From: Cloacibacillus sp. An23
GTDB lineage: Bacteria > Synergistota > Synergistia > Synergistales > Synergistaceae
Direction: 5' to 3'
DNA length: 64,000 bases
Assembly (NCBI RefSeq): GCF_002159945.1
Contig: NZ_NFJQ01000003.1
Coordinates: 1 to 64,000 of the forward strand
The position numbers and the translations under genes are program-made. The notes under the pieces are model-generated. The model had not been told where the DNA came from. It ran no database searches and was given only the letters and a program-made list of their open reading frames with translations. Shown here piece after piece: positions 35,560 to 60,844 of this stretch. Positions within the stretch are counted from its first letter, which is position 1; each line of letters starts with the position of its first letter.

Positions 35560-35807
35560 TAAAAGTTTCCTCCCACAAAAATTAATTCAACAACCTATCG
35601 AAAGTACTCCACACGGATGGTTTTGTCAAGAATGTAAATGAACATATATGTGTAATGAATAATTTATGTTAACATACAGCTCTAAAAAAAGAAAACATTT
35701 CAATTATATTTATTATAATAAAGATAGGATATATTTTTTATTTATTACGCAACAATAATTATATAAAATGCTATATAATAAAAGTATTTAATTAATATAT
35801 TGCATAA

Positions 35808-35838
35808 AAGGTTGTTAGATAAAATATGTAACAACCTT
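35808..35838. promoter_or_regulatory. Perfect 10-bp inverted repeat upstream of marR-type gene
   Basis: AAGGTTGTTA (35808-35817), 11 bases, TAACAACCTT (35829-35838). It lies 24 bases before the -35 box and is a plausible binding site for the MarR protein or another regulator. Confidence 0.55.
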
Positions 35839-35862
35839 AATAAAATCTCAATATTAACTGGA

Positions 35863-35891
35863 TTGACACGCAATAAATCGCGTGCTATATT
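35863..35891 (+). promoter_or_regulatory. Near-consensus promoter of the acquired operon
   Basis: TTGACA (35863-35868), a 17-base spacer and TATATT (35886-35891). It should drive the MarR gene and, given the short gaps, the genes behind it. Confidence 0.8.
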
Positions 35892-35924
35892 TTTGTTAGC
35901 CAGGAAACAAAAAATAAAAATAGG

Positions 35925-36383
35925 ATGAAAATTATGCAAAATTTATATCAAGAAACCGAGGCCATCATTGTTCGCATACTTAACTGCTATACCAACTTGC
36001 AGCGGTCGAAGCATGAATACTGTCCAGGAGTCAGCTTATATCCGTCAGAAATACACGCGATAGAGTGTATCGCAACAATTAAGAAAATAAACTTGACAGA
36101 ACTTGCGAACCAACTTGGTCTGACAAAAGGCGCTACTTCAAAGCTTGTTGCCAAGCTTGAAAAAGAAGGCCTATTACGTAGGTATAGATATGTCGACAAC
36201 CAAAAAGAAATATATTTCCATTTAACTGATACCGGTATACAGGCCTACAACGGACATAAGCTGTATCACGCGGATATGGCACGTGTTATGGAAGATTATT
36301 GCAGTAATGTCCCGGACGAAATTGGATATGAAATCGTAAAATTTTTGAATATATATTTGGAGCAAATGCAAAAACTATCATAA
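35925..36383 (+). CDS. MarR-family transcriptional regulator
   Basis: A 152-residue winged-helix regulator. LTELANQLGLTKGATSKLVAKL is the recognition HTH and EKEGLLRRYRYVDNQKEIYFHLT the wing. No RBS fits the first ATG well; the ATG at 35934 has AGG nine bases upstream and may be the true start. It lies 33 bases before the next gene on the same strand, so it is probably the local regulator of the catabolic operon, perhaps binding the palindrome at 35808-35838. Confidence 0.88.
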   Translation: MKIMQNLYQETEAIIVRILNCYTNLQRSKHEYCPGVSLYPSEIHAIECIATIKKINLTELANQLGLTKGATSKLVAKLEKEGLLRRYRYVDNQKEIYFHLTDTGIQAYNGHKLYHADMARVMEDYCSNVPDEIGYEIVKFLNIYLEQMQKLS

Positions 36384-36416
36384 ATTCATGAAAATTAGGA
36401 TTAAGGAGGAATTTCT

Positions 36417-37145
36417 ATGAGTAAAGTTATTTCGTCTGCGTCTCATCATGCTATGTTATTTGCTTTTATTGCGAAGAGGACGATCGACAAGTTCGGAAAG
36501 GACGGCGAAAAAGCGGTTACGGACGGAGTGCGCCATTACGGTGAGCAGAGGGGGCACCGCATGGCGCTGCGCACGCTGGCTGACGGAAATCAGCTGGATG
36601 TAGAAAATTACCTGATCTATGGAGAATGGAGCGCCGCCCCCGGAGAGATGGATCTTCGTTTCCCGCAGTATTCTCCGGAAGTACGCATGGAAAATCATAA
36701 ATGTCCGTGGTACACGGAATGGGAGAAGCGCGGGTTGCTGAAATATGGAGCGTATTACTGCAGAGACGTCGATGCATCTCTTGCAAGAGGATATAACGGC
36801 ATGGAACTCAAGCTCTTAGCGAACAGGACTCTAGGCGACGAACTCTGCGATTTTGTGTTTGCTGGATGCTCCATTCCTGATGAAAGAATGGCGGAATTTG
36901 CTGCAAAGAGAGAGAAAATCGGCGATAAAGCGAGAATGCCGTGGGAATATCATATTGGTCATTTGTACAGCGCTATGCGCGAAGTCATCATAAAAGCTTT
37001 TGGCGATGAAGGCGATATGGCTGTCCATGAAGCCATGGATGATTATAAAAATGAATACGGACAGGAATCATATGACCTTGTGTTGCAGTATGCCGATATC
37101 GATTATAACGCAATGCCCCAATACGAGGGTATAGATAAGAAGTAG
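36417..37145 (+). CDS. L-2-amino-thiazoline-4-carboxylate hydrolase family protein
   Basis: A 242-residue protein of the ATC_hydrolase family (helical, cysteine- and histidine-containing). It has the N-terminal AKRTIDKFGKDGEKAVTDGVRHYGEQRGHRMALR segment, NHKCPWYTEWEKRG in the middle, and FVFAGCSIPDERMAEFAAK. In Pseudomonas the named enzyme opens a thiazoline ring to S- or N-carbamoyl-cysteine. Many relatives have unknown roles, and several sit next to fumarate-reductase-like flavoproteins, as here. AAGGAGG precedes the ATG. Use as a thiazoline hydrolase is inferred only. Confidence 0.72.
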   Translation: MSKVISSASHHAMLFAFIAKRTIDKFGKDGEKAVTDGVRHYGEQRGHRMALRTLADGNQLDVENYLIYGEWSAAPGEMDLRFPQYSPEVRMENHKCPWYTEWEKRGLLKYGAYYCRDVDASLARGYNGMELKLLANRTLGDELCDFVFAGCSIPDERMAEFAAKREKIGDKARMPWEYHIGHLYSAMREVIIKAFGDEGDMAVHEAMDDYKNEYGQESYDLVLQYADIDYNAMPQYEGIDKK

Positions 37146-37163
37146 TCAATAGGAGGTGTGTAC

Positions 37164-38972
37164 ATGCGTCACGGATTTGAACGAGTTATTGAAACGGATG
37201 TACTTGCCATAGGCGGCTCCGGCGCAGGAATAACAGCTGCGATTTATGCTTCACGGAATGGCGCCCAAACGGCTCTAGTTTCTAAAGGCAAAATCGGGGT
37301 CAGCGGCAATGCAATTATGGCAGGCGGAGGATTTGGCGTAGATGGAGAAAGCGGGAAAAATATTCTTCATTTGGACTATGCCGATCCGTCTTTTACCAAA
37401 GAACGGTTGTTTGACTGCATTGTGAAAGAGTCTTTTTATTTATCGGATCAAAATATGGTTCGTGAGTATGTAGACGACGGACCTGTTGTAATGAAAGATT
37501 ATCTGGAGTGGGCTAAACGGTCCGGACAAGATTTTTTCTGCTGTCCGCCGGCTAACTGGATCGCTTCAGGTTTGAGCTTTACTAAGGCATTATCGCAAGG
37601 GCTGAAAGAAACGCCGGATATCGTGTGTCTTGAAGACGTAATGATCGCCGAGGTACTTACGGATGGGCAAAAAGTATGCGGCGCGGTTGGCGTAGATATT
37701 TACAGCGGTGAAATCATATTATTTAAGGCAAAAGCGGTCATAATAGGAACGGGAGGATATATGCCGTTTTCAATGAATAACACCGTAACTGATATGACCG
37801 GCGATGGCCCCGGGATGGCGTATCGCGCTGGGGCTCGTCTAACAGATATGGAGTTTATTCTTTCATTTCCGACAGCTGTTGTCCCCAAAGAAATGCGTGG
37901 ATCGATATATCCGTATGTATTTGAGTATAACATGCGGAGTTTAAAGTACACTATAAGAGATAAAAATGGGAACCCCCTTCCGATACCGGAGCAAGTTATC
38001 AAGCTTTCACGCGGCGGAAAGTTAAGCAAACTGGTAACTTCATACTATTTCGGTTATGCTGCGGATAGCGGACTTGCCGGTCCTAACGGAGGCTTTTTCT
38101 ACGACTATTCCGATAACAGTAAAGAAGTAAAAGACGAAAACTTTAAAATCTTCTACGACCGCTTCGACCGTTGGCACAAGCACGGTTACTATAAAGGCGA
38201 AAGCTTAGCCGAAGTTGAACGCATGATTTATAACAATGAGCCGCTCGAAGTCGGAATCGGCGCTGAATATTGCATGGGCGGCGTGGAAGTAGATGAACGC
38301 ATGCGTACGTGCGTAGACGGCCTGTATGTGGCTGGAGAGGCCAGCAGCGGAGTATTTGGCGCATGTCGTGTCGGCGATGGCATGGTTGAAATGATGTGCC
38401 AGGGAATGCGTGCCGGTATTGATGCTGCCGCTTATGCTCAGGCTGTCACATCGACGACGCAGGCCGAGAAGTTGATCGAACCTGTGTTGGATAAAATCCT
38501 TGGCGTCTTTGAACACAAAGGCGGAATTAACCCTATTGCCTTGTATTCTGAGATACAAAGCTCATGTGATCGCGGATTTGGACTTATTCGCAGCGAAAAC
38601 GGGCTCCAGCGTTCTCTCATCGAGATGAATCAGTTAGGTGATGCGTGGAACTGTGTGACGCTTAACAGTAAAAGCCGGTGTTACAACATGGAATGGCTCA
38701 TGGCGCTGCAGGCTGAGAACTTAATTACATGCTGCAAGGCTGGCATAGTCGCTGCGCTGTCAAGAAAGGAAAGCCGAGGGTGTCATATACGCAAGGATTA
38801 TCCTGAGGTTGATCACGACAACTACTTGATCAAATATGTGCATCATAACGAGGGCGGTGTTATGAAGACAGAGACACGAAAACCTGTTGTGCAAACGATG
38901 CCGCTGCCTCATGGGAAAAAAGAAAATGTAATCGAATATTTCCTTGATCCAACATTGAATTATAAACGTTAG
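37164..38972 (+). CDS. FAD-dependent fumarate-reductase/succinate-dehydrogenase-like flavoprotein
   Basis: A 602-residue flavoprotein. VLAIGGSGAGITAAIYASRNGAQ is the FAD dinucleotide-binding site; SGNAIMAGGGFG, the AVIIGTGGYMPF strand, TGDGPGMAYRAGARLTDMEF and CVDGLYVAGEASSGVFGACRVG follow the FrdA/SdhA/NadB order. There is no signal peptide. AGGAGG lies 7 bases before the ATG at 37164. The next gene encodes a [2Fe-2S] protein like the N-terminal half of FrdB, so the two may form a cytoplasmic reductase. The substrate is unknown, and it is not clear that it is fumarate. Confidence 0.85.
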   Translation: MRHGFERVIETDVLAIGGSGAGITAAIYASRNGAQTALVSKGKIGVSGNAIMAGGGFGVDGESGKNILHLDYADPSFTKERLFDCIVKESFYLSDQNMVREYVDDGPVVMKDYLEWAKRSGQDFFCCPPANWIASGLSFTKALSQGLKETPDIVCLEDVMIAEVLTDGQKVCGAVGVDIYSGEIILFKAKAVIIGTGGYMPFSMNNTVTDMTGDGPGMAYRAGARLTDMEFILSFPTAVVPKEMRGSIYPYVFEYNMRSLKYTIRDKNGNPLPIPEQVIKLSRGGKLSKLVTSYYFGYAADSGLAGPNGGFFYDYSDNSKEVKDENFKIFYDRFDRWHKHGYYKGESLAEVERMIYNNEPLEVGIGAEYCMGGVEVDERMRTCVDGLYVAGEASSGVFGACRVGDGMVEMMCQGMRAGIDAAAYAQAVTSTTQAEKLIEPVLDKILGVFEHKGGINPIALYSEIQSSCDRGFGLIRSENGLQRSLIEMNQLGDAWNCVTLNSKSRCYNMEWLMALQAENLITCCKAGIVAALSRKESRGCHIRKDYPEVDHDNYLIKYVHHNEGGVMKTETRKPVVQTMPLPHGKKENVIEYFLDPTLNYKR

Positions 38973-38987
38973 AAAGGAGGAGCATTC

Positions 38988-39296
38988 ATGAAAGTTCTTA
39001 TAGACAGATATGATCCTGACACGCAGATAAAAAAGACGGATGAATTTGTTGTCGGAGATGATGTCTGTGACGGGATGACGGTGATGGGGCTGCTGAATTA
39101 CATTGCACTCCATATTGACCACACGCTGGCCTATTATCGTCATAGTGTATGTGATCATGGAATATGCGGCAGATGTGTATTAGAAGTAAACGGCAAAGTA
39201 CGGCTGGCTTGTATTACGCCCGTTAGCGGCTGCGGGCAGATACATCTTGCGCCGGTTTCAAGCCGTACTTTGGTTCGTGATTTAGTCACAAAATAA
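38988..39296 (+). CDS. FrdB/SdhB-like [2Fe-2S] protein, N-terminal domain only
   Basis: A 102-residue protein with the plant-type [2Fe-2S] fold of SdhB: SVCDHGICGRCVLEVNGKVRLAC supplies the four cysteines. The C-terminal domain of SdhB, with the [3Fe-4S] and [4Fe-4S] clusters and quinone contact, is absent, and no membrane anchor gene is nearby. It lies 15 bases after the flavoprotein gene with a strong AAAGGAGG. It probably passes electrons to or from that flavoprotein and an unknown soluble carrier. Confidence 0.85.
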   Translation: MKVLIDRYDPDTQIKKTDEFVVGDDVCDGMTVMGLLNYIALHIDHTLAYYRHSVCDHGICGRCVLEVNGKVRLACITPVSGCGQIHLAPVSSRTLVRDLVTK

Positions 39297-39329
39297 TTTC
39301 AAGGAACACATTAAAAGGAGGACAATCGA

Positions 39330-40586
39330 ATGGCTAATGCACAGCAGAGGAATGTCGATGAATTTCAGCTTCCAAAGGGCGGCCTGATTAAAAAGCTTAT
39401 GTATATAATGGCTTTTATCGGGCCGGCATCTATGCTTTGTTCCACTTCAATGGGGCCTGGTACGGCATCTTCATGTATACAGGCCGGCTCAATGTTCGGT
39501 TATGACTTGTTATGGGCTATCGTATTGAGCGGGATTATGTGCGGCGGAGTTGCATACATTGGGGCTAAGGCGACGGCGCTTTCCGGGAAGGATGTATTTG
39601 AATTAATTCGGGAAAGAATCGGCAATGTTGCATGTTCGATTCTTTTTGTCGTCGTGCTGATCACATGGTATATGGTAATTTACAGCCAGGGCTCAATTAT
39701 GCGCCATCTCAATGACATAATGTTTGGTGAACAGGCTGCTGCTGTGGCATACGTTGTAACCATTTTGCTTATTGCATATTTGTACTACGCCAGCACAAAT
39801 AACCGCATTATCAAGATGGCTTCGATAATGTGTACTGTGATGGCGATTATATTTTTTATTAATGTGTTTTATGTACGTCCAAATATCGGTCAACTGATAG
39901 GCGGTATGGTGCCGAAACGCTTCTCCCTTGACGAGGCGATTATCATTGCCGGAGTTATCGGAGGATCCGCGCCGGGAACTTCTGCACTTTGGTATTCGTA
40001 TTCTGTGAAAAACCAGCAATGGGACAAGCCTTCGGCGCTGGGGTTCATTAAATGGGACCAGATTGTATTTGCAGCAATGTTTACAATCTTCAGCCTCGGT
40101 ATTTTCCTTTCCGGCGCTGCGGTACTGTTCCCTGCGGGCATAAAGGCCATGTCAGCGGTGGAGGCGGCGAAAGCTCTTGAGCCTCTGGCCGGAGTTTTGG
40201 GGACATATATTTTTATAGCGGGACTCTGGGGTGCTGTGTTTACCACTATAGGAGGCATGAGCACGTTAGGTTCATACTGCTTGAATTCGCTGTTCCATAT
40301 CAGCAAAGACAACTCGGATGTAAAAGTCCGCCGGTTGATCTTGATAGGTATCGTGATAAGCTTGTTCGGAGGCATGTCCGGTGGAAACGCAATGAGTCTG
40401 CTGGTAAACTTTTTGGGGCTGCTCAACATTGGCGGATTAGTGATAATAACTATCCTTACTTATCTTACCAGCAATTCGAAATTTTCCGGACAGTATAAAA
40501 ATAAATGGTATACGACCCTTATGGGACTTATCATTTTGGGATTCAACGCCTATTCGACTTGGACATATATTGCAAGATTCCTATAG
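39330..40586 (+). CDS. Nramp-family transporter with altered substrate motifs
   Basis: A 418-residue membrane protein with 11 or so helices and the LeuT-type Nramp fold (IMAFIGPASMLCSTSMGPGT in TM1; IIIAGVIGGSAPGTSALWYSYS in TM6). Metal-transporting Nramps have DPGN in TM1 and MPH in TM6; here these read MGPGT and SAPGT, so the aspartate, asparagine, methionine and histidine ligands are lost. It is therefore unlikely to carry divalent metals and, given the neighbours, may import an organic substrate. AAAGGAGG precedes the ATG. Confidence 0.75.
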   Translation: MANAQQRNVDEFQLPKGGLIKKLMYIMAFIGPASMLCSTSMGPGTASSCIQAGSMFGYDLLWAIVLSGIMCGGVAYIGAKATALSGKDVFELIRERIGNVACSILFVVVLITWYMVIYSQGSIMRHLNDIMFGEQAAAVAYVVTILLIAYLYYASTNNRIIKMASIMCTVMAIIFFINVFYVRPNIGQLIGGMVPKRFSLDEAIIIAGVIGGSAPGTSALWYSYSVKNQQWDKPSALGFIKWDQIVFAAMFTIFSLGIFLSGAAVLFPAGIKAMSAVEAAKALEPLAGVLGTYIFIAGLWGAVFTTIGGMSTLGSYCLNSLFHISKDNSDVKVRRLILIGIVISLFGGMSGGNAMSLLVNFLGLLNIGGLVIITILTYLTSNSKFSGQYKNKWYTTLMGLIILGFNAYSTWTYIARFL

Positions 40587-40668
40587 GTTCGGTTGCACAC
40601 TTTTAACTGACGCGTCCTTGGCGGCGAATGCCGTCAAGGACGTCTACGAAACGGAAGGGTGATACATT

Positions 40669-41412
40669 ATGGAATTAGAAAATCGTGTAGCAGTTGTCAC
40701 CGGAGCGAGTTCCGGCATCGGAGAAGTAATAGCTAAGTTTTACCTGAAAGAGGGAGCGTACGTATATGGCTGCGGGTTAGAGGAACAGGCCGCAATTGTT
40801 AATGAAAGGTTCCATTACCACAGAGCAAATATATGCGATCTGGCACAGGCAGACCTTGTAGCCAAGGGATGTATTGAAAAGTTTGGCCGGATGGATATTT
40901 TGGTTAATTGCGCCGGAGTGACTGGAATCGGCACAATAGACGATACATCCGTCGCAGAATTTCGTCGCCAATTCGAGATAAACGTCTTCGGCGTATATAC
41001 GATGACGAAGGCTGCGATAGATTTGATTCGCCAATCAGAGCATGCCGTTATTATCAATATTGTGTCCGAACTTGGGGTAAAATGTATACCGGCACGCGTC
41101 GCTTATTGCCCGTCTAAAGCCGCTGTCGAAATGCTCACGAGATGTCTTGCCGTTGACTGTGGGCCGCGTGTGCGTGTGAACGGTATCCTCCCCGGGCTGA
41201 CCGAAACTCCGATGACGAAAATGCGTTACGAAAACGCACTTGATCCGGAGGCAGAGAGACAGAAAACACGTAACCGGTATATCCTCAAGCGTATGTGTAC
41301 GCCGGAAGATGTTGCAAACGGCGCCGTTTTCCTCGCCTCAGACCGCGCGTCTTTTATTACAGGAGATATGCTCGCTGTCTGCGGCGGAGGACAGTTTATT
41401 ACTATGCAGTGA
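40669..41412 (+). CDS. Short-chain dehydrogenase/reductase
   Basis: A 247-residue NAD(P)-dependent SDR. TGASSGIGEVIAKFY is the cofactor loop, LVNCAGVTGIG the NAG motif, the serine in IINIVSELG and Y/K in VAYCPSKAAVEML the catalytic residues, and VRVNGILPGLTETPM the typical later strand. It lies 82 bases after the transporter gene and 9 bases before the amidohydrolase gene. It probably oxidises or reduces an alcohol/ketone in the same pathway. Confidence 0.9.
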   Translation: MELENRVAVVTGASSGIGEVIAKFYLKEGAYVYGCGLEEQAAIVNERFHYHRANICDLAQADLVAKGCIEKFGRMDILVNCAGVTGIGTIDDTSVAEFRRQFEINVFGVYTMTKAAIDLIRQSEHAVIINIVSELGVKCIPARVAYCPSKAAVEMLTRCLAVDCGPRVRVNGILPGLTETPMTKMRYENALDPEAERQKTRNRYILKRMCTPEDVANGAVFLASDRASFITGDMLAVCGGGQFITMQ

Positions 41413-41421
41413 GGCGCGGTC

Positions 41422-42588
41422 ATGGATGCGTTGAACGAAGCTAAGAGCTGCGAAGCTTCATTAATACAGCTGCGGCGCGATATACATAGGCATCCTGAAC
41501 TCGGGTGGAAGGAACAACGAACACAGGATGTTATCTGCAAAGAGCTTGACGATATCGGATTGCCGTACGAGAAAGTCTGCGGTACCGGCGTTATCGCAAA
41601 ACTTGAGGGGGATTTGCCTGGGCAAGTAATCGGAATTCGCGCAGATATGGACGCCCTGCCGATATCTGAAAAAAATAACTGCGAATACGTCTCAGAAAAT
41701 CCAGGCGTTATGCATGCATGCGGACATGACTGCCATGTGGCGATGCTTCTTACTGCGGCTAGAATTTTAACCCGTCATAAAGATATTATACACGGCAGTA
41801 TAAAATTCATATTCCAACCGGCAGAAGAAATAATCGAAGGCGCACATGAGATGTACAGGCTGAAACAAATGGCTGATATAAAACGCATTTTTGGAGCACA
41901 TGTCTGGAATGCGTTAGATGTTGGGACTTTTTCTGCGGAATCAGGGGCGCGATTTGCAAGTGCGGATAATTTCTATATTACGGTCCGCGGGACAAGCGCG
42001 CATGGCGCGCAGCCGCATAATTCGGCCGACGCGATAGTATCCGCCTGCAGTATAGTTGGAGCGCTGCAGACGATAACGAGCCGTAATGTTGATCCGCTTG
42101 AACCTGCCGTTGTTACCGTCGGAACGATTGAAGGCGGCTCATCGCCGAACATAATTGCAAATCAGGTAAAACTTTCTGGAACGGCTAGGTCGTTCAGTCC
42201 GCGAGTGCGCGATTTCGTAGAAAAACGTATAGGCGAAATTTCAAGCGATGTCGCCAAGGCGTACGGGACGGAATGTGAATATGAATACCGCCGCTGCACT
42301 CCTGCGACGATAAATGATATTGCATCTACTGAGATAGTACGGGACGCCGTCATATCGCTCTTCGGCGATGCGAAGCTTGTCCACCTGGAGAAAACGACTG
42401 GAGGCGAAGATTTTGCCTGGTATCTAGAAGACATTCCGGGGGCATATTTATTTATTGGATCCCGGAATGAAAAGGCTGGCAAATATTCCCCGCATCACCA
42501 CGAATGCTTTGACATTGATGAACAAGCGCTGGTAAACGGTACGGCGGTGTTGGTGCAGATCGGTTTAACTGCCGGACGTGAAGGCTGA
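41422..42588 (+). CDS. M20-family amidohydrolase
   Basis: A 388-residue dinuclear zinc hydrolase of the M20D type (aminoacylase, IAA-amino acid hydrolase group). Metal and catalytic residues are in IRADMDALP, MHACGHDCHVAMLL, FQPAEEIIEGAHEM, AHGAQPHNSADA and TTGGEDFAWYL. It removes an N-acyl or N-carbamoyl group from an amino acid. With the ATC-hydrolase-like gene in the same operon, a carbamoyl-cysteine type substrate is a possibility but not shown. Confidence 0.9.
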   Translation: MDALNEAKSCEASLIQLRRDIHRHPELGWKEQRTQDVICKELDDIGLPYEKVCGTGVIAKLEGDLPGQVIGIRADMDALPISEKNNCEYVSENPGVMHACGHDCHVAMLLTAARILTRHKDIIHGSIKFIFQPAEEIIEGAHEMYRLKQMADIKRIFGAHVWNALDVGTFSAESGARFASADNFYITVRGTSAHGAQPHNSADAIVSACSIVGALQTITSRNVDPLEPAVVTVGTIEGGSSPNIIANQVKLSGTARSFSPRVRDFVEKRIGEISSDVAKAYGTECEYEYRRCTPATINDIASTEIVRDAVISLFGDAKLVHLEKTTGGEDFAWYLEDIPGAYLFIGSRNEKAGKYSPHHHECFDIDEQALVNGTAVLVQIGLTAGREG

Positions 42589-42601
42589 AAGGAGAATGAC
42601 A

Positions 42602-43447
42602 ATGAGCGACAAAATCAACTTTGCGGCCGAGTTTAATAAATCTAAAGAAGAACTGCTGGCTATGGACGAGGTCGAGTTCCGCGCCAGATTTAGAGAACGT
42701 TGTCATCATACATTAGAAATACAGTTATATTCGGCCGCATACCGTGGGAAACCTCTTAACCCCAAACAAACCAAAACGACAGAGCTTTTCATGGAAGTGT
42801 GGCAAGAGCGCGGAATGCCGGAGACACTGCCGGAATATGTGTTTGCGTCTAGGTTGTTGTCTTTTGCACAGAAATTGGTACGCGGTGAAACGCTTGACCT
42901 CTCGCCATATGAAGTTTCGCCGCTTTCGCCAAGCGAACTTTCCGGGTTTGAACGTACTGTGTACGAACGCCGTTCGGTACGGGAATGGAGCGCACGTAAA
43001 GTTCCTGACGATATTATCGAAAAGGTTTTGAAAGCCGGTCTTTGGGCGGCACATGCTTGTAATCTTCAGTCCATTCGGTATCTGGTAATGCGTGAAGAAC
43101 ATTGTCCCGGTTTGTTTAGAGGCAGTGATATCCCAGGCGGTCCGCTGCACGTTGTAGTGCTGCAGGATATGCGAGTCTATAAAGCCAATCCGGTGATGCC
43201 GGAGAGCAATCAATTATTGGACGCCGGCGCCGCCGGACAGAATTTGGTGTTGGCGGCTCATGCGTATGGGCTCGGCGCTTGCTGGCTGACCTTTACAAGC
43301 GAAGAAATGAAACAGAGAATTCGTGACTATGTCAACTTGCCCGAATATATGCGCATGACGACTTATGTAGATATGGGCTATCCGGATCAGTCTCCATATC
43401 CGCCGCAGCGAATCTCTGTAGATGAAGCGGTGTACTATTGGAAGTAA
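42602..43447 (+). CDS. Nitroreductase-family flavoprotein with N-terminal extension
   Basis: A 281-residue protein. The C-terminal 180 residues are a nitroreductase fold: YERRSVREWSARKVPDDIIEK, AGLWAAHACNLQSIRYLVMR and AAGQNLVLAAHAYGLGACWL. The N-terminal 100 residues are helical and not recognised. ATG at 42602 was chosen over one at 42596 because GGAG lies 8 bases upstream. Last gene of the AT-rich operon, 13 bases after the amidohydrolase. It would use FMN and NAD(P)H for a two-electron reduction of an unknown substrate. Confidence 0.85.
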   Translation: MSDKINFAAEFNKSKEELLAMDEVEFRARFRERCHHTLEIQLYSAAYRGKPLNPKQTKTTELFMEVWQERGMPETLPEYVFASRLLSFAQKLVRGETLDLSPYEVSPLSPSELSGFERTVYERRSVREWSARKVPDDIIEKVLKAGLWAAHACNLQSIRYLVMREEHCPGLFRGSDIPGGPLHVVVLQDMRVYKANPVMPESNQLLDAGAAGQNLVLAAHAYGLGACWLTFTSEEMKQRIRDYVNLPEYMRMTTYVDMGYPDQSPYPPQRISVDEAVYYWK

Positions 43448-43595
43448 AGCATAGCTGCGGTTTACGGCCGCGATATTCAAGATCTATGTCAAAATAGGGC
43501 TTAAATAAAATAAATGCATGTTTATATACCAAAGCCTTGTAGGTGTATGAATTGATAAAAGCAACATCTTTGCATAAACATATTTGATTTTAAGC

Positions 43596-43667: not shown

Positions 43668-44984
43668 ATGCCCACATTGAAGGAATTTTTGCGCAGCGAA
43701 GTAAAACCGGCGCTCGGATGTACCGAGCCGGGGGCTGTGGCGCTCGCGGTTGCGCGCGCTTGCGCCGAGCTTCCGGACAGGGAGAACGTCGCGGCGGTGC
43801 GCGTCACCGTCAGCGCGAATATTTATAAAAACGGGATGGCGGTCGGCATTCCCGGCGCTGGAGGAGCGCGCGGCAACGCGATAGCCGCGGCGCTCGGCGC
43901 GATATGCGGCGACTCTTCGCGCGGCCTCGAGGTGCTCGCGGGGACGGCGCCGGAGGATGTGGCGAAGGCTGAGGCGTGGGTGAAGGAGAAGCGCGCGACT
44001 ATCTACTGCGACCAGGACAGAGGCGGAGTCTACGTCCTCGCCTCGGTCTTTACGCCTGAACACAAGGCGATGTGCCTGATAGAGGGCAGCCATTCAAATA
44101 TAGTCAAGGTTACGGCCGACGGGGAGACTGTGTTTGAAAAGGAGCGCGTCTCCGGCTCTTCGTCGGGCTTCGCCGACGACGGTTTCCCGACGAAGTTCGC
44201 CGACGTGCTCAAGATGGCGGACGAGATGGACGCGGAGGATGAAGATTTCATCTGGGAGGGCGTCGAGATGAACGACCGCATAGCGGCCGCGGGCATCAAG
44301 CCGGCAGGCGGAGGCAGCCTCCAGAGCAGTAATTTCGCGCTCGTCCTGCGCGACGACGAAAAGGTCGGCGATTTCGTGCCGGTGTCGCTCGAGATACGCA
44401 CGACGGCTTCGGCGGCGGCCGAGGCGCGCATGTCGGGCGTGCAGCTTCCGGTCATGAGCAGCGCCGGCAGCGGCAACCACGGTATCACGGCTATAATCCC
44501 CATAGCGGTGCTGGGCCGCCGCACGGGCAAGAGCCGCACGGAGATAGCGAAGGCGATAGCCGTCAGCCACCTCGCGACGAGCTTCGTGAAGCGCAACCTC
44601 GGGCGTCTCTCGCCGGTCTGCGGCTGCTCCGTCGCGGCGGGCGCGGGCGCGGCGGCCGGCATGACCTATCTCATGGGCGGGAATTACGACCAGATATGCG
44701 CGGCTATGAGCCTGCTGCTTTCCGATATAGCGGGGATGCTCTGCGACGGAGCCAAGGAGAGCTGCGCGCTCAAGGTCGGCTCCGCGTCGTCGGAGGCCTA
44801 CTGCGCGATGGAGTGGGCGATGAGCGGGCAGCATCTGGCCGTACCGCAGGGTGTTTTCGGCGCGTCCATCGAGGAGACTGTGGCGAACGTGGGCCGCGTC
44901 TCGCGCGAGGGCATGAAGACGGTGGACCGCGTCATGATAGATATTCTCGACGAACGCCACAGGCCGAACGAGGAAAATTTTTAG
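43668..44984 (+). CDS. cyuA: L-cysteine desulfidase (CyuA/UPF0597 family)
   Basis: A 438-residue cytoplasmic enzyme that breaks L-cysteine into pyruvate, H2S and ammonia using an Fe-S cluster. The family cysteines are in KPALGCTEPGAVALA, RLSPVCGCSVAAGAG and GMLCDGAKESCALK. AGGGGGAAAG precedes the ATG. Codon use returns to the GC-rich type of the chromosome, so the boundary of the AT-rich block lies between the nitroreductase gene and this one. Position next to the ATC-hydrolase-family operon suggests it could use cysteine released there. Confidence 0.88.
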   Translation: MPTLKEFLRSEVKPALGCTEPGAVALAVARACAELPDRENVAAVRVTVSANIYKNGMAVGIPGAGGARGNAIAAALGAICGDSSRGLEVLAGTAPEDVAKAEAWVKEKRATIYCDQDRGGVYVLASVFTPEHKAMCLIEGSHSNIVKVTADGETVFEKERVSGSSSGFADDGFPTKFADVLKMADEMDAEDEDFIWEGVEMNDRIAAAGIKPAGGGSLQSSNFALVLRDDEKVGDFVPVSLEIRTTASAAAEARMSGVQLPVMSSAGSGNHGITAIIPIAVLGRRTGKSRTEIAKAIAVSHLATSFVKRNLGRLSPVCGCSVAAGAGAAAGMTYLMGGNYDQICAAMSLLLSDIAGMLCDGAKESCALKVGSASSEAYCAMEWAMSGQHLAVPQGVFGASIEETVANVGRVSREGMKTVDRVMIDILDERHRPNEENF

Positions 44985-51579: not shown

Positions 51580-52038
51580 TTAGCCGCCGTCCGAGTTTTC
51601 CATGCCTGTTATCTCCCTCATGACAAGCAGAGTATATGTCCTGCCGACGGTTTTATATAAATAATCCATGAAAGAGCTCAGTTCGTCTTTATTTGCTATA
51701 TGCACTTCAAGCATATAATCGTATTCGCCTGAGACCATATAGATATTGAATACTTCGTCCCTTTCGATAAGAAAATGAGGCACGTCTCCAATGAATTTAT
51801 CGTCCTTTAATAAAATGAAGGCGTGTATGGCATATCCGAACTTTCCCCAGTCGATTTTTGCGTTGTAAGCGATTATGCCTTTCTTTTCCTCCATCTTTTT
51901 CGTGCGGTCGTAAACTGATGAAGCCGAGAGCGCTATTTTTTCGCCGAGCTTTTTATATGATATTCTGCAATCCCTATGCAGTTCATATGCGATTTGAAAA
52001 TCTACATCGTCCATCTCAAGTCTGGTCGGTTTGATCAT
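51580..52038 (-). CDS. Lrp/AsnC-family transcriptional regulator
   Basis: A 152-residue regulator. DDVDFQIAYELHRDCRISYK with LGEKIALSASSVYDRTKKMEEK is the HTH. The C-terminal RAM domain has YDYMLEVHIANKDELSSF and VGRTYTLLVMREITGM. It lies downstream of, and on the same strand as, the saccharopine-dehydrogenase-family gene, separated by a terminator hairpin. It likely responds to an amino acid and may control the neighbouring catabolic pair. Confidence 0.9.
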   Translation of the reverse strand: MIKPTRLEMDDVDFQIAYELHRDCRISYKKLGEKIALSASSVYDRTKKMEEKKGIIAYNAKIDWGKFGYAIHAFILLKDDKFIGDVPHFLIERDEVFNIYMVSGEYDYMLEVHIANKDELSSFMDYLYKTVGRTYTLLVMREITGMENSDGG

Positions 52039-52193
52039 ACATATCAGCCCCTTTTCGCTATAGTATTCATTGCCATGTTGCTGCAGTTAACGGCATAAAA
52101 ATAAGGCATACCTATGTGTATGTTGTATATATTCTCCATAATTATAAACAAAAAATTTTTCTGCAACAATCGATTTACCATAGCAAAATAGCA

Positions 52194-52229
52194 AAGGGCG
52201 TCTAAAAAATAATTTTTTCAGACGCCCTT
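52194..52229 (-). terminator. Hairpin after the saccharopine-dehydrogenase-like gene
   Basis: AAGGGCGTCT (52194-52203) pairs with AGACGCCCTT (52220-52229), with an internal A6/T6 extension. The minus-strand T-run is poor. Confidence 0.6.
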
Positions 52230-52273
52230 CCGGCGTAGGCGGCTTTACGTACGGTACCGGCCCAGCCGTCTGT

Positions 52274-53422
52274 CTAAATCTCTTCGACTAATACGCTGTG
52301 CTTGAATACTATGCCGTGTTCGGCGAGCTGCGGCATGAGGTAGCTATAGAATTTGTCGTCCGCCGCGAGCGATTCCGGCGCATGGAATCCGGGCTCTGAA
52401 ATGATGCCGTAGGCGATCGCCCTCGCCGTAGCCGCGCACGGATATCCGGTCGTGCGCGCCATTGAATGCAGCATCTGCTCTTCGTCGAATTTGTCAACTA
52501 GGTCCCAGGTGTTTGTAACATACTTTCCGTCTTTGGGGCCTTTTGCGACGACGCGCATGACGGTTAAGTCGCGGTCGCCTTTTTCAGGTCTCAGCGTCCA
52601 TAGCGGACGGAAAAGCTCCGTTGTAACGTTGAACGGGATCACATCTTTTCCGTCGACGACGACCGGCTCTTTGCTGAAACATCCTGCCGCCTTAAGTATA
52701 TTGATAGTATCTACGTATCCAGGCCAGCGCATCGTCTTTTCTGCTACGAATTTTCCTTTGACGTTTTCAGAAGCTGAACGAAGCCCGTCGGTGAAGAACG
52801 CTTCAAGTCTGCCTACGCCGGGGATATCTATTTCTTCAAGGCCGCTGAGCGCAGGTGTTTCGGTGATTTTGTTGTCCTTCACGTATCTGGCGGGCCAGCA
52901 GTATTCGTTCATCGTATCTTCAAGGCAGAAAACGGTTCTGTAATTGAACGGGGGGTCAAGCTTATCCGGGATTCCCCCGACATATATGCATCCAAAATCA
53001 AGCTCGTCCACCATCGTCCCGCCTCTTGCCACAAGATAGTTCGACATGCCGGGGGCTATCCCCATATCGAAGACGGCTACGGAACCGCTTTTCTTTGCTA
53101 TCTCGTCCATCCCGCTGCTATGCAGATAACCGCTTGGACTTACGTAGTTTTTTCCCATTTCGAGTATCTGCTTCTGTGAGGCCTCCTCGAGATGGCTCGG
53201 AAGGAGCCCGCATATTACATCGGCGTCTTTTGCCGCTTCAGCGAGGGCGGCGGCATCGTCGGCGGATTTCTGGATCTTTTTGATGTCGTTTCTGTCTCCG
53301 AGCGAAGCCAGTGCTTTTTCAAACGGATCCATTACCGTGACCTCGAAATCCTTCGCGAGGTCTATGGCGACGGTTTTCCCTATGAGGCCGCATCCTAATA
53401 CCAATGCTTTTTTCATTGTCAT
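52274..53422 (-). CDS. Saccharopine dehydrogenase-family oxidoreductase
   Basis: A 382-residue NAD(P) enzyme. The N-terminal KALVLGCGLIGKTVAIDLAK is the nucleotide fold, GIAPGMSNYLVARG the catalytic-domain segment, and TMRWPGYVDTINILKAAG a later conserved block, as in lysine 6-dehydrogenase or saccharopine reductase relatives. It probably oxidises an amino acid (lysine-type) in fermentation. It follows an AGCS amino acid symporter by 20 bases, so uptake and oxidation are linked. The exact substrate is not readable. Confidence 0.82.
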   Translation of the reverse strand: MTMKKALVLGCGLIGKTVAIDLAKDFEVTVMDPFEKALASLGDRNDIKKIQKSADDAAALAEAAKDADVICGLLPSHLEEASQKQILEMGKNYVSPSGYLHSSGMDEIAKKSGSVAVFDMGIAPGMSNYLVARGGTMVDELDFGCIYVGGIPDKLDPPFNYRTVFCLEDTMNEYCWPARYVKDNKITETPALSGLEEIDIPGVGRLEAFFTDGLRSASENVKGKFVAEKTMRWPGYVDTINILKAAGCFSKEPVVVDGKDVIPFNVTTELFRPLWTLRPEKGDRDLTVMRVVAKGPKDGKYVTNTWDLVDKFDEEQMLHSMARTTGYPCAATARAIAYGIISEPGFHAPESLAADDKFYSYLMPQLAEHGIVFKHSVLVEEI

Positions 53423-53442
53423 CTGCTCCTTTTATTATTGGA

Positions 53443-54867
53443 TTATTTATCTACGTCAACTTTGCTGTATTCCTCCAGTCCCCACAGCTTACGCGGGCCT
53501 TCATAGTCCTTCAATATAGATATAAACTTTTTGGACAGGAGGAGTATCACGACAAGGTTCACGTAGGTCGGTACCGACGACGATATATCGACGATAAGCC
53601 AAGCGTAAGATACGTCAGTATGCATGACGTCGACCATGTAAGCCATAATCAGGCCGAAGAACGGCGTTGAGATCCGAAGCATACGCAGCGCGGTCTTTCT
53701 GACACGGGCGTTATTTTTGAATGCGTATTCCAGAATGGAGTGGAAGTAAGAAAACCAGCCGGTAACGGTAGTCCATGAGAACAGGAACAGTGAAAACGCT
53801 ATGAAATAACCGGCGAACGTTTTACCTAGACCGTGGGCGAAAGCATTTATAGTAAGCGTAGAGCCGGAAAGGCCTGAGCTCCATTCGCCAGTGATGACTA
53901 TTACGAGCCCGGTTGTAGAACAGACGAGCATGGTGCTCATGAATACTTCCATAATGCCCCACATCCCCTGTTCCACGGGATGGTTCTGCTCGGCCGTGGC
54001 ATGCACCATAGGGCTTGTGCCCCAACCTGCTTCATTGCTGAAGAGGCCGCGTGAAATGCCGGTTCTTGCTATGAGCATAAACGAAGCTCCGGCGAAGCCT
54101 CCCACCGCGGCAACCGGCTGGAAAGCGGACTCCACGATCAGTGCTATCGCAGACGGAAGACTCGTTATATTAGTAATGATGATGTAAAAGCCAAACACCA
54201 TGTACATAATTGACATGAACGGCATCATAAACGACGCGAAATTAACGACGCGATGCATGCCGCCCCAGATGACGACGCCGCACATGAAGCAGAAGAAAGT
54301 CGACAAATACATCACCCTGACTCCGGTGATTTCATGAAGAGCCTCGCCTACCGTATATGCTTCGGGAGCCAAGATAAGCTGCAGGAACAAGCTGCCGCCG
54401 AATAACACTGCGAATATTTTCCAGCACTTGATTTTTTTGCCAAGCCCCTGTTCTATGTAAAATAGCGGGCCGCCTACTTTCTTGCCGTCTTCTTGTTTTC
54501 TGTAATATACGGCCAACGTCACCTCGGCCATTTTAGTCATCATACCGACGAGAGCCGTCATCCACATCCAGAACAGCGCGCCGGGGCCGCCGAGTGCGAT
54601 CGCGCTGGCTACTCCGCCTATATTGCCAGCGCCTATACATCCAGCGATGCCGACCGCTGCCGCCTGATACGGAGAGATTTTGTTCTTATCGCTGGGCAGC
54701 ATCTCTCCAGAACCTTTGCCGAGAAAGCAGAAGCGGAATGAATCCGCGAAATGACGCAACTGCCAGAATTTTGTTATGATGGTGAAATACAAACCGGTAC
54801 CCAACAGGCCTATAAGAAGCGTTGGCCCCCACAAAACGCCGACAACCTGGTTTAGGAACTGTTCCAT
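53443..54867 (-). CDS. Sodium:alanine/glycine symporter (AGCS family)
   Basis: A 474-residue, 11-helix transporter. GPTLLIGLLGTGLYFTIITKF, GCIGAGNIGGVASAIALGGPG, SRGLFSNEAGWGTSPMVHAT and YMVDVMHTDVSYAWLIVD fit the AGCS pattern. It imports alanine, glycine or a related amino acid with Na+. It is first in a two-gene operon with the saccharopine-dehydrogenase-family enzyme. AGGGAGGG lies upstream of the start. Confidence 0.92.
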   Translation of the reverse strand: MEQFLNQVVGVLWGPTLLIGLLGTGLYFTIITKFWQLRHFADSFRFCFLGKGSGEMLPSDKNKISPYQAAAVGIAGCIGAGNIGGVASAIALGGPGALFWMWMTALVGMMTKMAEVTLAVYYRKQEDGKKVGGPLFYIEQGLGKKIKCWKIFAVLFGGSLFLQLILAPEAYTVGEALHEITGVRVMYLSTFFCFMCGVVIWGGMHRVVNFASFMMPFMSIMYMVFGFYIIITNITSLPSAIALIVESAFQPVAAVGGFAGASFMLIARTGISRGLFSNEAGWGTSPMVHATAEQNHPVEQGMWGIMEVFMSTMLVCSTTGLVIVITGEWSSGLSGSTLTINAFAHGLGKTFAGYFIAFSLFLFSWTTVTGWFSYFHSILEYAFKNNARVRKTALRMLRISTPFFGLIMAYMVDVMHTDVSYAWLIVDISSSVPTYVNLVVILLLSKKFISILKDYEGPRKLWGLEEYSKVDVDK

Positions 54868-58052: not shown

Positions 58053-58176
58053 GTAAGAGTAAACCGTATGCTGACATACAAAATAGTGTCGTTGTATTTA
58101 CGTATGATATGTTGAGATATGCACCCTGTTATGCCATAATGATTAAATGATTTTTAATGTAGCGGGGTTCTCTTCT

Positions 58177-60138
58177 ATGATTTATAACTATAATAAACTA
58201 TGGCAACTATTGATAAATAATGGAATGACGAAAACTCAAATGCGCCAGTCGGTAGGTATCAGCGCAAATCTACTTGCGAAGATGGGAAGAAATGAACCTG
58301 TTTCGCTGAATAGTTTGGCAAAGATATGTACCACGTTGAACTGTGGACTTAATGATATTATAGAAATTATTGAAGATAATCAGACCATAATTCCAGAAAC
58401 CATACGGGATAGCGTATCAGATGCCACTGTAAGAAATTGGGAAAAACTTAAAACAACATTGATTGGGCGGCTGACCACACGTGCAAATAAAAGAAAATCG
58501 CAAAAACGTTTCATTCCATTAGAATATAACTGCAATAAGGACAATATCCCTTTTGTCCAAGGTATTTTGGAGTATATAGACGCTAATAACCTTGATATTA
58601 TGTCATCCATGTATTCTTTAGGGATTAGCCTGTTAAATAACGCAAAGATTTATAATAAACAACATGTAAAAAGTACTTTAAAAGAATATGAATATGTTGA
58701 TGTTGTGGATGAATTGACGAGACTTAAAATACCGGATGATGAATTCGATATTCTAGGATTGATTTATCAATCATATTTGCAAGAAGGCCAAAAAAATATT
58801 ATCGGTTCATATTATACGCCACAAAGAATAACACACAATCTGACATCGAGATTTGATTTTTCTAATGGCGAGCTTTTTCTTGACCCATGTTGTGGGAGTG
58901 GAGCCTTTCTGTTAAGCGTTAAAGTGAAAAATCCTAACCAGATATATGGAATAGACAACGATAAGATAGCTGTCTTGATTTCTAAAATTAATATATTGTT
59001 GAAATATAAAGATATTGAATTTATCCCACATATTTACTGTCTTGATTTTTTAATGGGTAATTCGATCACTCAGCGGCATCCAGTATTTGAAAAGAGATTT
59101 GATTATATTGCTACAAATCCACCATGGGGCGCGATGCGCGATAACTACAAATATATAGAGACCATAACGTCCAAAGAAACATTTTCATACTTTTTTGTAA
59201 GAGCATATGCACAATTAAAGAAAGGGGGCATAATAAGGTTTCTTTTTCCGCAAGCAATTTTAAATGTAAAAATCCACAAGGATATAAGGAAGTTTATTCT
59301 TAATACAGCAAAACTCGCAAGCATAACGATATACGATGATATGTTTTCAAGTGTGACAACAAAGTATGTCGATATTGAGTGTGGTAGCAATGCTAATAAT
59401 GAAATATTTTATATGTATACAAACACCGAGAAAAGAGCTATTGCAATTAAAACTGTTTATGAAACAGAGAATTTAATATTTAACCTTCTGTCTTACGAAG
59501 ACATTTCTATTATTCAGTGTGTCAAAAATAAAGGCAAATTTTCTCTCACTAATAGTACTTGGGCATTAGGTATTGTTACAGGAGATAATAAGGGCAAGCT
59601 TTCCTCAAAATGTTTTTGTGGCATGGAGAAAATATACACTGGGAAAGAAATACAACCATATTTTTTAAGTCCAGCAAAAAACTATATTTTGTATGATAGA
59701 GCCAACTTACAACAAGTTGCTAAAGAAGAAATATATCGTGCGCCAGAAAAATTAGTATACAAGTTTATATCAAACAAGCTTGTTTTTGCGTATGATGATA
59801 GCGCAAGTCTTTTTTTGAACAGCGCTAACATCTTGATTCCTGCCATCCCTTCTATGGGCATAAAGACTGTAATGGCCTTTTTAAACTCGACATTATATCA
59901 ATTTTTATATATTAAGCTTTTTGGTGAAGTAAAAATACTAAAAGGAAATTTAAATGAATTGCCATTTCCTGAGATAACCCAAGAGGAAAATGACAACTTA
60001 ACATTATTGGTAGATGAAGTTTTAAGTGGTAATAGATTTAAACGAGAAGTTATTGATAATTATATTTTTTCAATATATGGTTTATCTGGCAAACAAATAA
60101 CTTATATACGGAGTGTAATAAATGGAAAATTTAATTAA
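58177..60138 (+). CDS. HTH-fused adenine-specific DNA methyltransferase
   Basis: A 653-residue protein in strongly AT-rich DNA. The N-terminal 70 residues are an XRE-type HTH (YNYNKLWQLLINNGMTKTQM and SLNSLAKICTTLNCGLNDII). The N6-adenine methylase core follows, with ELFLDPCCGSGAFLLSV (SAM) and DYIATNPPWGAMRD (catalytic NPPW). The last 200 residues resemble a target-recognition region (FAYDDSASLFLNSANILIPA). Start ATG 58177 is preferred because the HTH begins there and GGGG precedes it. It overlaps the nuclease gene by 17 bases. The HTH may autoregulate the system. Confidence 0.85.
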   Translation: MIYNYNKLWQLLINNGMTKTQMRQSVGISANLLAKMGRNEPVSLNSLAKICTTLNCGLNDIIEIIEDNQTIIPETIRDSVSDATVRNWEKLKTTLIGRLTTRANKRKSQKRFIPLEYNCNKDNIPFVQGILEYIDANNLDIMSSMYSLGISLLNNAKIYNKQHVKSTLKEYEYVDVVDELTRLKIPDDEFDILGLIYQSYLQEGQKNIIGSYYTPQRITHNLTSRFDFSNGELFLDPCCGSGAFLLSVKVKNPNQIYGIDNDKIAVLISKINILLKYKDIEFIPHIYCLDFLMGNSITQRHPVFEKRFDYIATNPPWGAMRDNYKYIETITSKETFSYFFVRAYAQLKKGGIIRFLFPQAILNVKIHKDIRKFILNTAKLASITIYDDMFSSVTTKYVDIECGSNANNEIFYMYTNTEKRAIAIKTVYETENLIFNLLSYEDISIIQCVKNKGKFSLTNSTWALGIVTGDNKGKLSSKCFCGMEKIYTGKEIQPYFLSPAKNYILYDRANLQQVAKEEIYRAPEKLVYKFISNKLVFAYDDSASLFLNSANILIPAIPSMGIKTVMAFLNSTLYQFLYIKLFGEVKILKGNLNELPFPEITQEENDNLTLLVDEVLSGNRFKREVIDNYIFSIYGLSGKQITYIRSVINGKFN

Positions 60139-60844
60139 GGAATTAAGGACTCAAATTGCTGCAATGAACAAAACACATGTGGGCAAATATAACCTAAGCG
60201 ATAGTGTGTTGGATAATTTATATTCTGTCTATCCTTTTAACAAATTTGAATACATCATAAGCCATTTGATTGGTACTGACACAATTTCACTTCAACAATA
60301 CCTTAATCTCCGTAATGAATACTTAGAACGAAATAAGTACTTATATGTTTTTGAAATTACCGCACCGCGCACTTTTGGGGAGACATGGGCACAACGACAC
60401 CTTAATGAAATTGTGCCCGAACTGCGACGCCCATCAACGTCTTATGACCCTAATTACTCAGGACAATATGATTTTTTGTATGATGGGATTAGAATTGAGG
60501 TAAAAGCATCAAGAGCCGTTCGGCGAAAGAGTGGGGATTCCTTAATAATTAAAGCGTTATCAAGTGATTCAAAATATGGTTTTGATATGAATTTCCAACA
60601 GATAAAACCATCTTGCTGTGATGTGTTTGTCTGGATAGCAGTATGGCGTGATGTAATACGTTATTGGGTACTTTCCAGTAATGAAGTTGCAACTAATAAA
60701 TACTATTCAACCGGCCAACACAGAGGAAATCATGATGAAGGACAGCTGTGGTTGAAAGAAACGAATATTAATGATTTCAATACTTATGAAGTTGGCGTTC
60801 GTGATATCTTATCTAAGATTGTCGAGAAGGGCAGGCATAATTAG
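60122..60844 (+). CDS. Type II restriction endonuclease, PD-(D/E)xK type
   Basis: A 240-residue protein downstream of, and overlapping, the methyltransferase. The candidate active site is YDFLYDGIRIEVKASRAVR (D, then E-x-K). The rest has basic and aromatic residues typical of restriction enzymes. Cleavage at the sequence methylated by the partner is inferred from gene order. The target sequence is not readable. Confidence 0.8.
   Translation: MENLIKELRTQIAAMNKTHVGKYNLSDSVLDNLYSVYPFNKFEYIISHLIGTDTISLQQYLNLRNEYLERNKYLYVFEITAPRTFGETWAQRHLNEIVPELRRPSTSYDPNYSGQYDFLYDGIRIEVKASRAVRRKSGDSLIIKALSSDSKYGFDMNFQQIKPSCCDVFVWIAVWRDVIRYWVLSSNEVATNKYYSTGQHRGNHDEGQLWLKETNINDFNTYEVGVRDILSKIVEKGRHN

Follow-up and report, generated by a model that had tools for sequence, protein, structure and literature searches.

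Introduction

In Pseudomonas, DL-ATC is converted to L-cysteine by a PF14196 hydrolase and a cysteine-freeing amidohydrolase, and pyruvate, H2S and ammonia are then formed (PMC10821248); the ATC hydrolase cleaves the C-S bond of the thiazoline (PMC5847659). Here we describe an AT-rich operon of Cloacibacillus sp. An23, located in a 64,000-nucleotide stretch (contig NZ_NFJQ01000003.1, positions 1 to 64,000; hereafter the window), which likewise combines a PF14196 protein with an amidohydrolase. In contrast to the Pseudomonas pathway, this locus adds a flavoprotein/2Fe-2S pair, a putative importer of the Nramp fold and the desulfidase CyuA, and its M20 amidohydrolase is of the N-acyl (TIGR01891) type, whereas the Pseudomonas amidohydrolase is of the carbamoylase type.

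Four further systems share parts of this gene set. The S-(2-succino)cysteine salvage of Bacillus subtilis (scm/yxe) also ends with an M20 deacylase that frees cysteine and holds the closest solved relative of the operon's M20 protein, but its acetyltransferase and monooxygenase were not seen in the operon, and a PF14196 protein and a FrdA-like flavoprotein are not reported for scm/yxe. Oxidation of thioproline (thiazolidine-4-carboxylate) to N-formylcysteine is established in bacteria and mitochondria, where it is carried out by promiscuous proline enzymes, proline dehydrogenase/ProC (PMC9814826, PMC12899673), whereas a dedicated soluble FrdA-like flavoprotein is proposed here. In the pxpTABC system, the Nramp-family transporter PxpT/YcsG (TCDB 2.A.55) is needed for growth on 5-oxoproline, a five-ring imino acid (PMC13274462), but the ring-opening enzymes differ and the product is glutamate. 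Finally, CyuA is reported to be paired with a dedicated importer in the cysteine fermentation by cyuPA of Escherichia coli (PMC9040844); free cysteine is imported there, whereas our operon presumably imports a derivative and then unmasks cysteine.

Results

The block is a real, conserved and horizontally acquired catabolic unit, and its features, together with the native gene that adjoins it directly downstream, are as follows.

35649..43587, no strand, inserted low-GC block, which replaces ~65 bp of the same-genus genome G001
35863..35891, + strand, sigma-70-like promoter TTGACA-17-TATATT (11/12 consensus, best site in scan)
35892..35911, + strand, imperfect palindrome TTTGTTAGCCAGGAAACAAA resembling an operator, probably the MarR site (five species share the core CAGGAAACAA without change)
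35925..36383, + strand, marR, MarR-family regulator (PF01047, E=1.3e-12; 71% identical in L014)
36417..37145, + strand, atcH, PF14196 protein, proposed ring-opening hydrolase (E=1.5e-19)
37158..38972, + strand, FrdA-like soluble flavin adenine dinucleotide (FAD) protein, proposed dehydrogenase (FAD_binding_2 and Succ_DH_flav_C)
38988..39296, + strand, half-FrdB of 102 residues, 2Fe-2S ferredoxin-like domain only (PF13085, E=3e-20)
39330..40586, + strand, Nramp-fold transporter without metal ligands (PF01566, E=5.2e-40)
40669..41412, + strand, SDR oxidoreductase (PF13561, E=6e-50; 87% identical in L014)
41422..42588, + strand, M20 amidohydrolase, proposed N-acyl-cysteine deacylase (TIGR01891, E=1.2e-109)
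42578..43447, + strand, nitroreductase-family flavoprotein with an N-terminal extension (PF00881, E=7.7e-22)
43668..44984, + strand, cyuA, gene of the native L-cysteine desulfidase, which would catalyse the last step (PF03313)

The first-pass annotation, made from the sequence of the window, had placed an AT-rich acquired operon at 35600-43460. The composition bears this out, with a GC content of 45.6% in the block versus 60-61% in the flanks, and the position needs a small correction. In pairwise alignment, DNA homology with a genome of the same genus (G001; L081, contig C41) stops at 35647 and restarts at 43588, and ~7.94 kb in the window take the place of ~65 bp in that genome. The permease gene of the left flank and the cyuA gene of the right flank are close neighbours there, the homologous stretches lying ~65-85 bp apart, and the same neighbourhood is tight in a more distant relative (G027). 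Since the same-genus genome has an empty site at this point, the block is an insertion spanning ~35649-43587. No tRNA gene was found in the window, and no transposase, integrase or target duplication was noticed at the block borders, where the genes were scanned in part. All eight co-directional open reading frames (35925-43447) were found as previously described, and Pfam/NCBIfam scans matched their families (MarR, PF14196 ATC_hydrolase, FAD_binding_2 with Succ_DH_flav_C, Fer2_3, Nramp, SDR, M20 and nitroreductase). Strong GGAGG sites, claimed for the seven genes downstream of marR, precede four of them, those of the SDR, M20 and nitroreductase genes being weak.

Scattering of these genes in relatives had been named as the outcome that would speak against a single unit; instead, the gene order is kept in Bacillota. 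Agathobaculum massiliense (L014) has the complete set of eight in unchanged order, at 70-87% amino-acid identity, and so do, in the same order, the Bacillota UC5.1-1D2 (L016) and G149 (L031). The nitroreductase gene is absent from Kallipyga (L015), which has the other seven, and from Neofamilia (L017), in which the set is rearranged. A decayed operon in UC5.1-1D2 was considered and rejected: its frameshifts look like assembly errors because neighbouring genes of the contig carry them too. The closest relatives of the block belong to a phylum other than that of the host, and among 188 genomes of the window's own phylum the close version of the flavoprotein occurs only in the window's genome. 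In the protein tree, the window groups with Agathobaculum in a nested position (support 100/99). Acquisition is borne out by the empty site, the GC contrast, the Bacillota relatives and the absence elsewhere in the phylum.

The same genome also carries a second, native version (L039 5216-10349; G000:C1, ~204200-209350) with a MarR gene, a flavoprotein of 33% identity, a half-FrdB, an Nramp-like protein and a PF14196 protein. Its GC content of 0.556 matches its surroundings, and part of such a second version is present in G001 (L003).

The functional unit reaches beyond the coordinates first given, to cyuA, which had not been part of the unit described; one more native gene thus belongs to it than was seen before. 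CyuA is 94% identical in G001, where it lies beside the same permease. The best solved match of the window protein is MmCyuA (9fsl, E=1.6e-31), with which its dyad Cys18/Glu20 and cluster cysteines Cys318, Cys359 and Cys366 align. According to a crystal-structure paper, the Cys/Glu dyad is essential, serine dehydratases do not conserve it, and dyad and cluster cysteines mark desulfidases (PMC12647591); all five residues are kept in 12/12 CyuAs compared. A CyuA gene lies beside the cluster in the window, L014, L015, L017 and L031, in varying arrangements, and beside more distant cluster versions in L033, L037, L038 and L054. With the close ortholog group counted once and the expectation taken from the measured background frequency of CyuA, 5 of 12 cluster types are linked to it versus 0.07 expected (P ~4e-9). 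In addition, among 38 PF14196 loci sampled independently, with no regard to the flavoprotein, CyuA lay in the fetched stretch in four, among them L055, L059 and L074, versus 0.2-0.3 expected. Because cyuA is native in the window, while the majority of Bacillota copies come with a cyuA gene of their own, the CyuA link was re-formed in the recipient.

PF14196 genes also lie beside cyuA in the absence of the flavoprotein (L055, L059 and L074). These loci form a second conserved neighbourhood of PF14196, CyuA and a branched-chain-type ABC transporter (L055 3000-11659, L059 3004-9525, L074 2895-14551), and dihydroxyacetone-kinase-like genes are found in L055 and L074 as well.

A MarR gene and a promoter of the operon's own had been predicted together with a palindrome; the first two were confirmed, whereas the orthologous operons do not keep the hairpin-like palindrome, which lies within the promoter (35867-35884). 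What 5/5 of them do keep is the operator-like element TTTGTTWRCCAGGAAACAAA, just downstream of the -10 box; TTGACA is invariant in all five, and the -10 box is also shared. This element has a single exact site in its own genome (35895-35911), the next best having three mismatches. Since promoter and element are conserved and the exact site is unique in the host genome, the arrangement fits one transcript under the operon's own MarR regulator.

The best solved match of the M20 protein is YxeP (1ysj; E=3.8e-76, 38% identity over 362 positions), which we take to be ScmP (BSU39470). ScmP is a highly specific N-acetylcysteine deacetylase (PMC12757645). Carbamoylase models match the M20 protein at 3.3e-8 at best, and it is not of the carbamoyl-cysteine amidohydrolase type. 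We therefore propose it as a putative N-acyl-cysteine deacylase, bearing in mind that other acyl amino acids are substrates of related enzymes. ATC itself is disfavoured as the main substrate because the M20 protein is not a carbamoylase.

AtcH scored 71.6 bits against the curated PF14196 model (cut-off 28.1), and its Cys96, Cys115 and Cys144 are invariant in five orthologs. No solved relative was found by sequence. Its structural model (pLDDT 82) gave weak matches to V4R/TRAPP folds, including the phenol-binding domains of MopR/PoxR (best E 4.7e-3). The protein is thus predicted, by these weak matches, to have a V4R-like fold with three conserved cysteines, as expected of PF14196; a V4R/TRAPP-type fold was proposed earlier for the ATC hydrolase family from sequence analysis (PMC5847659). 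On homology, it is a candidate thiazoline-opening hydrolase.

The flavoprotein has Asn51 at the position of the covalent-FAD histidine of FrdA (His44). Among the FrdA substrate residues, His232 is replaced by Phe237 and His355 by Glu370; Arg287 aligns with Leu289, an uncertain alignment with Arg285 close by, and only Arg390 is kept, as Arg404. The half-FrdB has the motif CxxxxCxxCx11C (residues 55-75) and, since only the 2Fe-2S half of FrdB is present, lacks the quinone-side clusters; it has the 2Fe-2S domain alone and is not the three-cluster iron-sulfur subunit of fumarate reductase or succinate dehydrogenase. A fumarate respiration module was rejected on the lost catalytic residues and the missing second half of FrdB. 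An AlphaFold model of the flavoprotein, built with four sequences, reached a pLDDT of 47, which is poor, and was not used.

In alignment to solved Nramps, the transporter has GPGT in place of DPGN and APGT in place of MPHN; metal uptake was rejected on these lost ligands. Nramps that have lost the same metal ligand, the Asp of transmembrane segment 1, occur in 11/16 sampled loci of pxpA (5-oxoprolinase), which suggests a putative Nramp-fold family of organic-acid carriers among pxpA neighbours. These Nramps (L092-L099, L101, L102 and L104) have GPGF or GPGT at this position.

Elsewhere in the window, a second AT-rich island (58147-60844, GC ~0.32) holds, as judged by eye, a large protein of the adenine-methyltransferase type, XRE-like at its N-terminus, followed by a restriction-enzyme-like protein, and is probably an acquired restriction-modification pair. 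Another stretch (51580-54867, GC ~48-50%) encodes, also by eye, an Lrp-like regulator, a saccharopine-dehydrogenase-like protein and an alanine/sodium-symporter-like protein.

Discussion

Our preferred interpretation, held tentatively and at slightly less than an even chance, is a MarR-regulated operon that uses a cysteine derivative by an oxidative ring-opening route and was put directly upstream of a native desulfidase gene. Its best supported step is the end point, which is probably cysteine because of the cyuA linkage, the N-acetylcysteine deacetylase nearest to the M20 protein and the ATC-hydrolase-family protein; these narrow the first-pass proposal that an N-acylated or ring-containing amino-acid derivative is broken down, which our data support. 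We infer the substrate, the order of reactions and the direction of electron flow as follows. The Nramp-fold protein would import thiazolidine- or thiazoline-4-carboxylate, a five-membered cysteine heterocycle, or a related N-acyl-cysteine. The FrdA-like flavoprotein would oxidise the thiazolidine to the thiazoline, passing electrons on via the 2Fe-2S cluster of the half-FrdB, after which the PF14196 protein would hydrolyse the thiazoline C-S bond to give an N-acyl-cysteine, the M20 protein would take off the acyl group, and CyuA would split the resulting L-cysteine into pyruvate, ammonia and H2S, feeding fermentation. The SDR and the nitroreductase would deal with the side chain or with electrons. 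Genes beside the cluster in L033 and L054, which by eye we take to be 2-oxoacid:ferredoxin oxidoreductase-like together with butyrate-kinase-like or acyl-CoA-synthetase-like, fit the expected fate of pyruvate.

Several observations weigh against this route. The operon has no known substrate, and the SDR and the nitroreductase have no firm role in it. No cyuA gene adjoins the operon in UC5.1-1D2 or lies near the versions in L032, L035, L036 and L039, and two distant flavoprotein/half-FrdB pairs (L041 and L042) have no PF14196 neighbour. PF14196 owes its name to Pseudomonas enzymes that have been characterised, and the activity may differ elsewhere in the family. Furthermore, the flavoprotein may work in the reducing direction. 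A flavin reductase serving as electron sink had been suggested at first; this was not supported in that form, as the fumarate-reductase residues and the quinone-side half of FrdB are missing and the enzyme set would make more sense with the flavoprotein oxidising its substrate.

Three other explanations were weighed. The substrate may be an acyclic N-acyl- or S-conjugated cysteine such as a mercapturate, from which the flavoprotein/2Fe-2S pair would reductively remove the S-substituent before M20 deacylates and CyuA finishes, with the PF14196 protein as a binding protein or accessory hydrolase. The CyuA linkage would fit this equally well, and YxeP, the nearest relative of the M20 protein, works in S-(2-succino)cysteine salvage; however, nearly all clusters, including those without M20, have a PF14196 gene along with that of the flavoprotein, which suggests that the PF14196 protein takes part in the core reaction, and the precedent for the Nramp-fold carrier is a five-ring imino acid. 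We consider this explanation rather unlikely. A reductive route, in which the flavoprotein/2Fe-2S pair would reduce a thiazoline or thiazole to a thiazolidine that opens spontaneously to cysteine and an aldehyde, the SDR reducing the aldehyde and the whole serving as an electron sink, seems less probable still. Although the hosts are anaerobic, FrdA-family proteins are often reductases and the nitroreductase and SDR could give or take hydride, it leaves no job for the PF14196 and M20 proteins, both order-conserved in the orthologous operons.

In the third explanation, the operon would act on a sulfur-free amino-acid derivative, for instance an N-acyl- or oxazoline-type serine or diaminopropionate compound, and the CyuA-like enzyme would eliminate its product rather than cysteine. 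CyuA does belong to the SDH_alpha family and the specificity of the PF14196 protein here is putative, but the Cys/Glu dyad, which is reported to be absent from serine dehydratases, is present in every linked CyuA, and we regard this explanation as the most improbable of the three.

Returning to the oxidative ring-opening route, it is possible, although doubtful, that the operon represents an undescribed anaerobic pathway, spread between phyla, which ferments thiazolidine or thiazoline carboxylates formed when aldehydes or keto acids trap cysteine, and in which the FrdA-like protein and the half-FrdB would together form a thiazolidine dehydrogenase, a new enzyme type; no description of this gene set or pathway was found in the open-licence literature. 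If the oxidative ring-opening route is right, it would give a function to the recurring set of flavoprotein, half-FrdB and PF14196 protein scattered in Bacillota and the window's phylum, and would support the view that some Nramp-fold carriers form a class transporting small ring acids rather than metals. It would also point to a hidden microbial source of H2S, from cysteine that is masked in adducts with aldehydes or keto acids, and an operon moved between phyla would have landed beside the native gene for the last step of its pathway.

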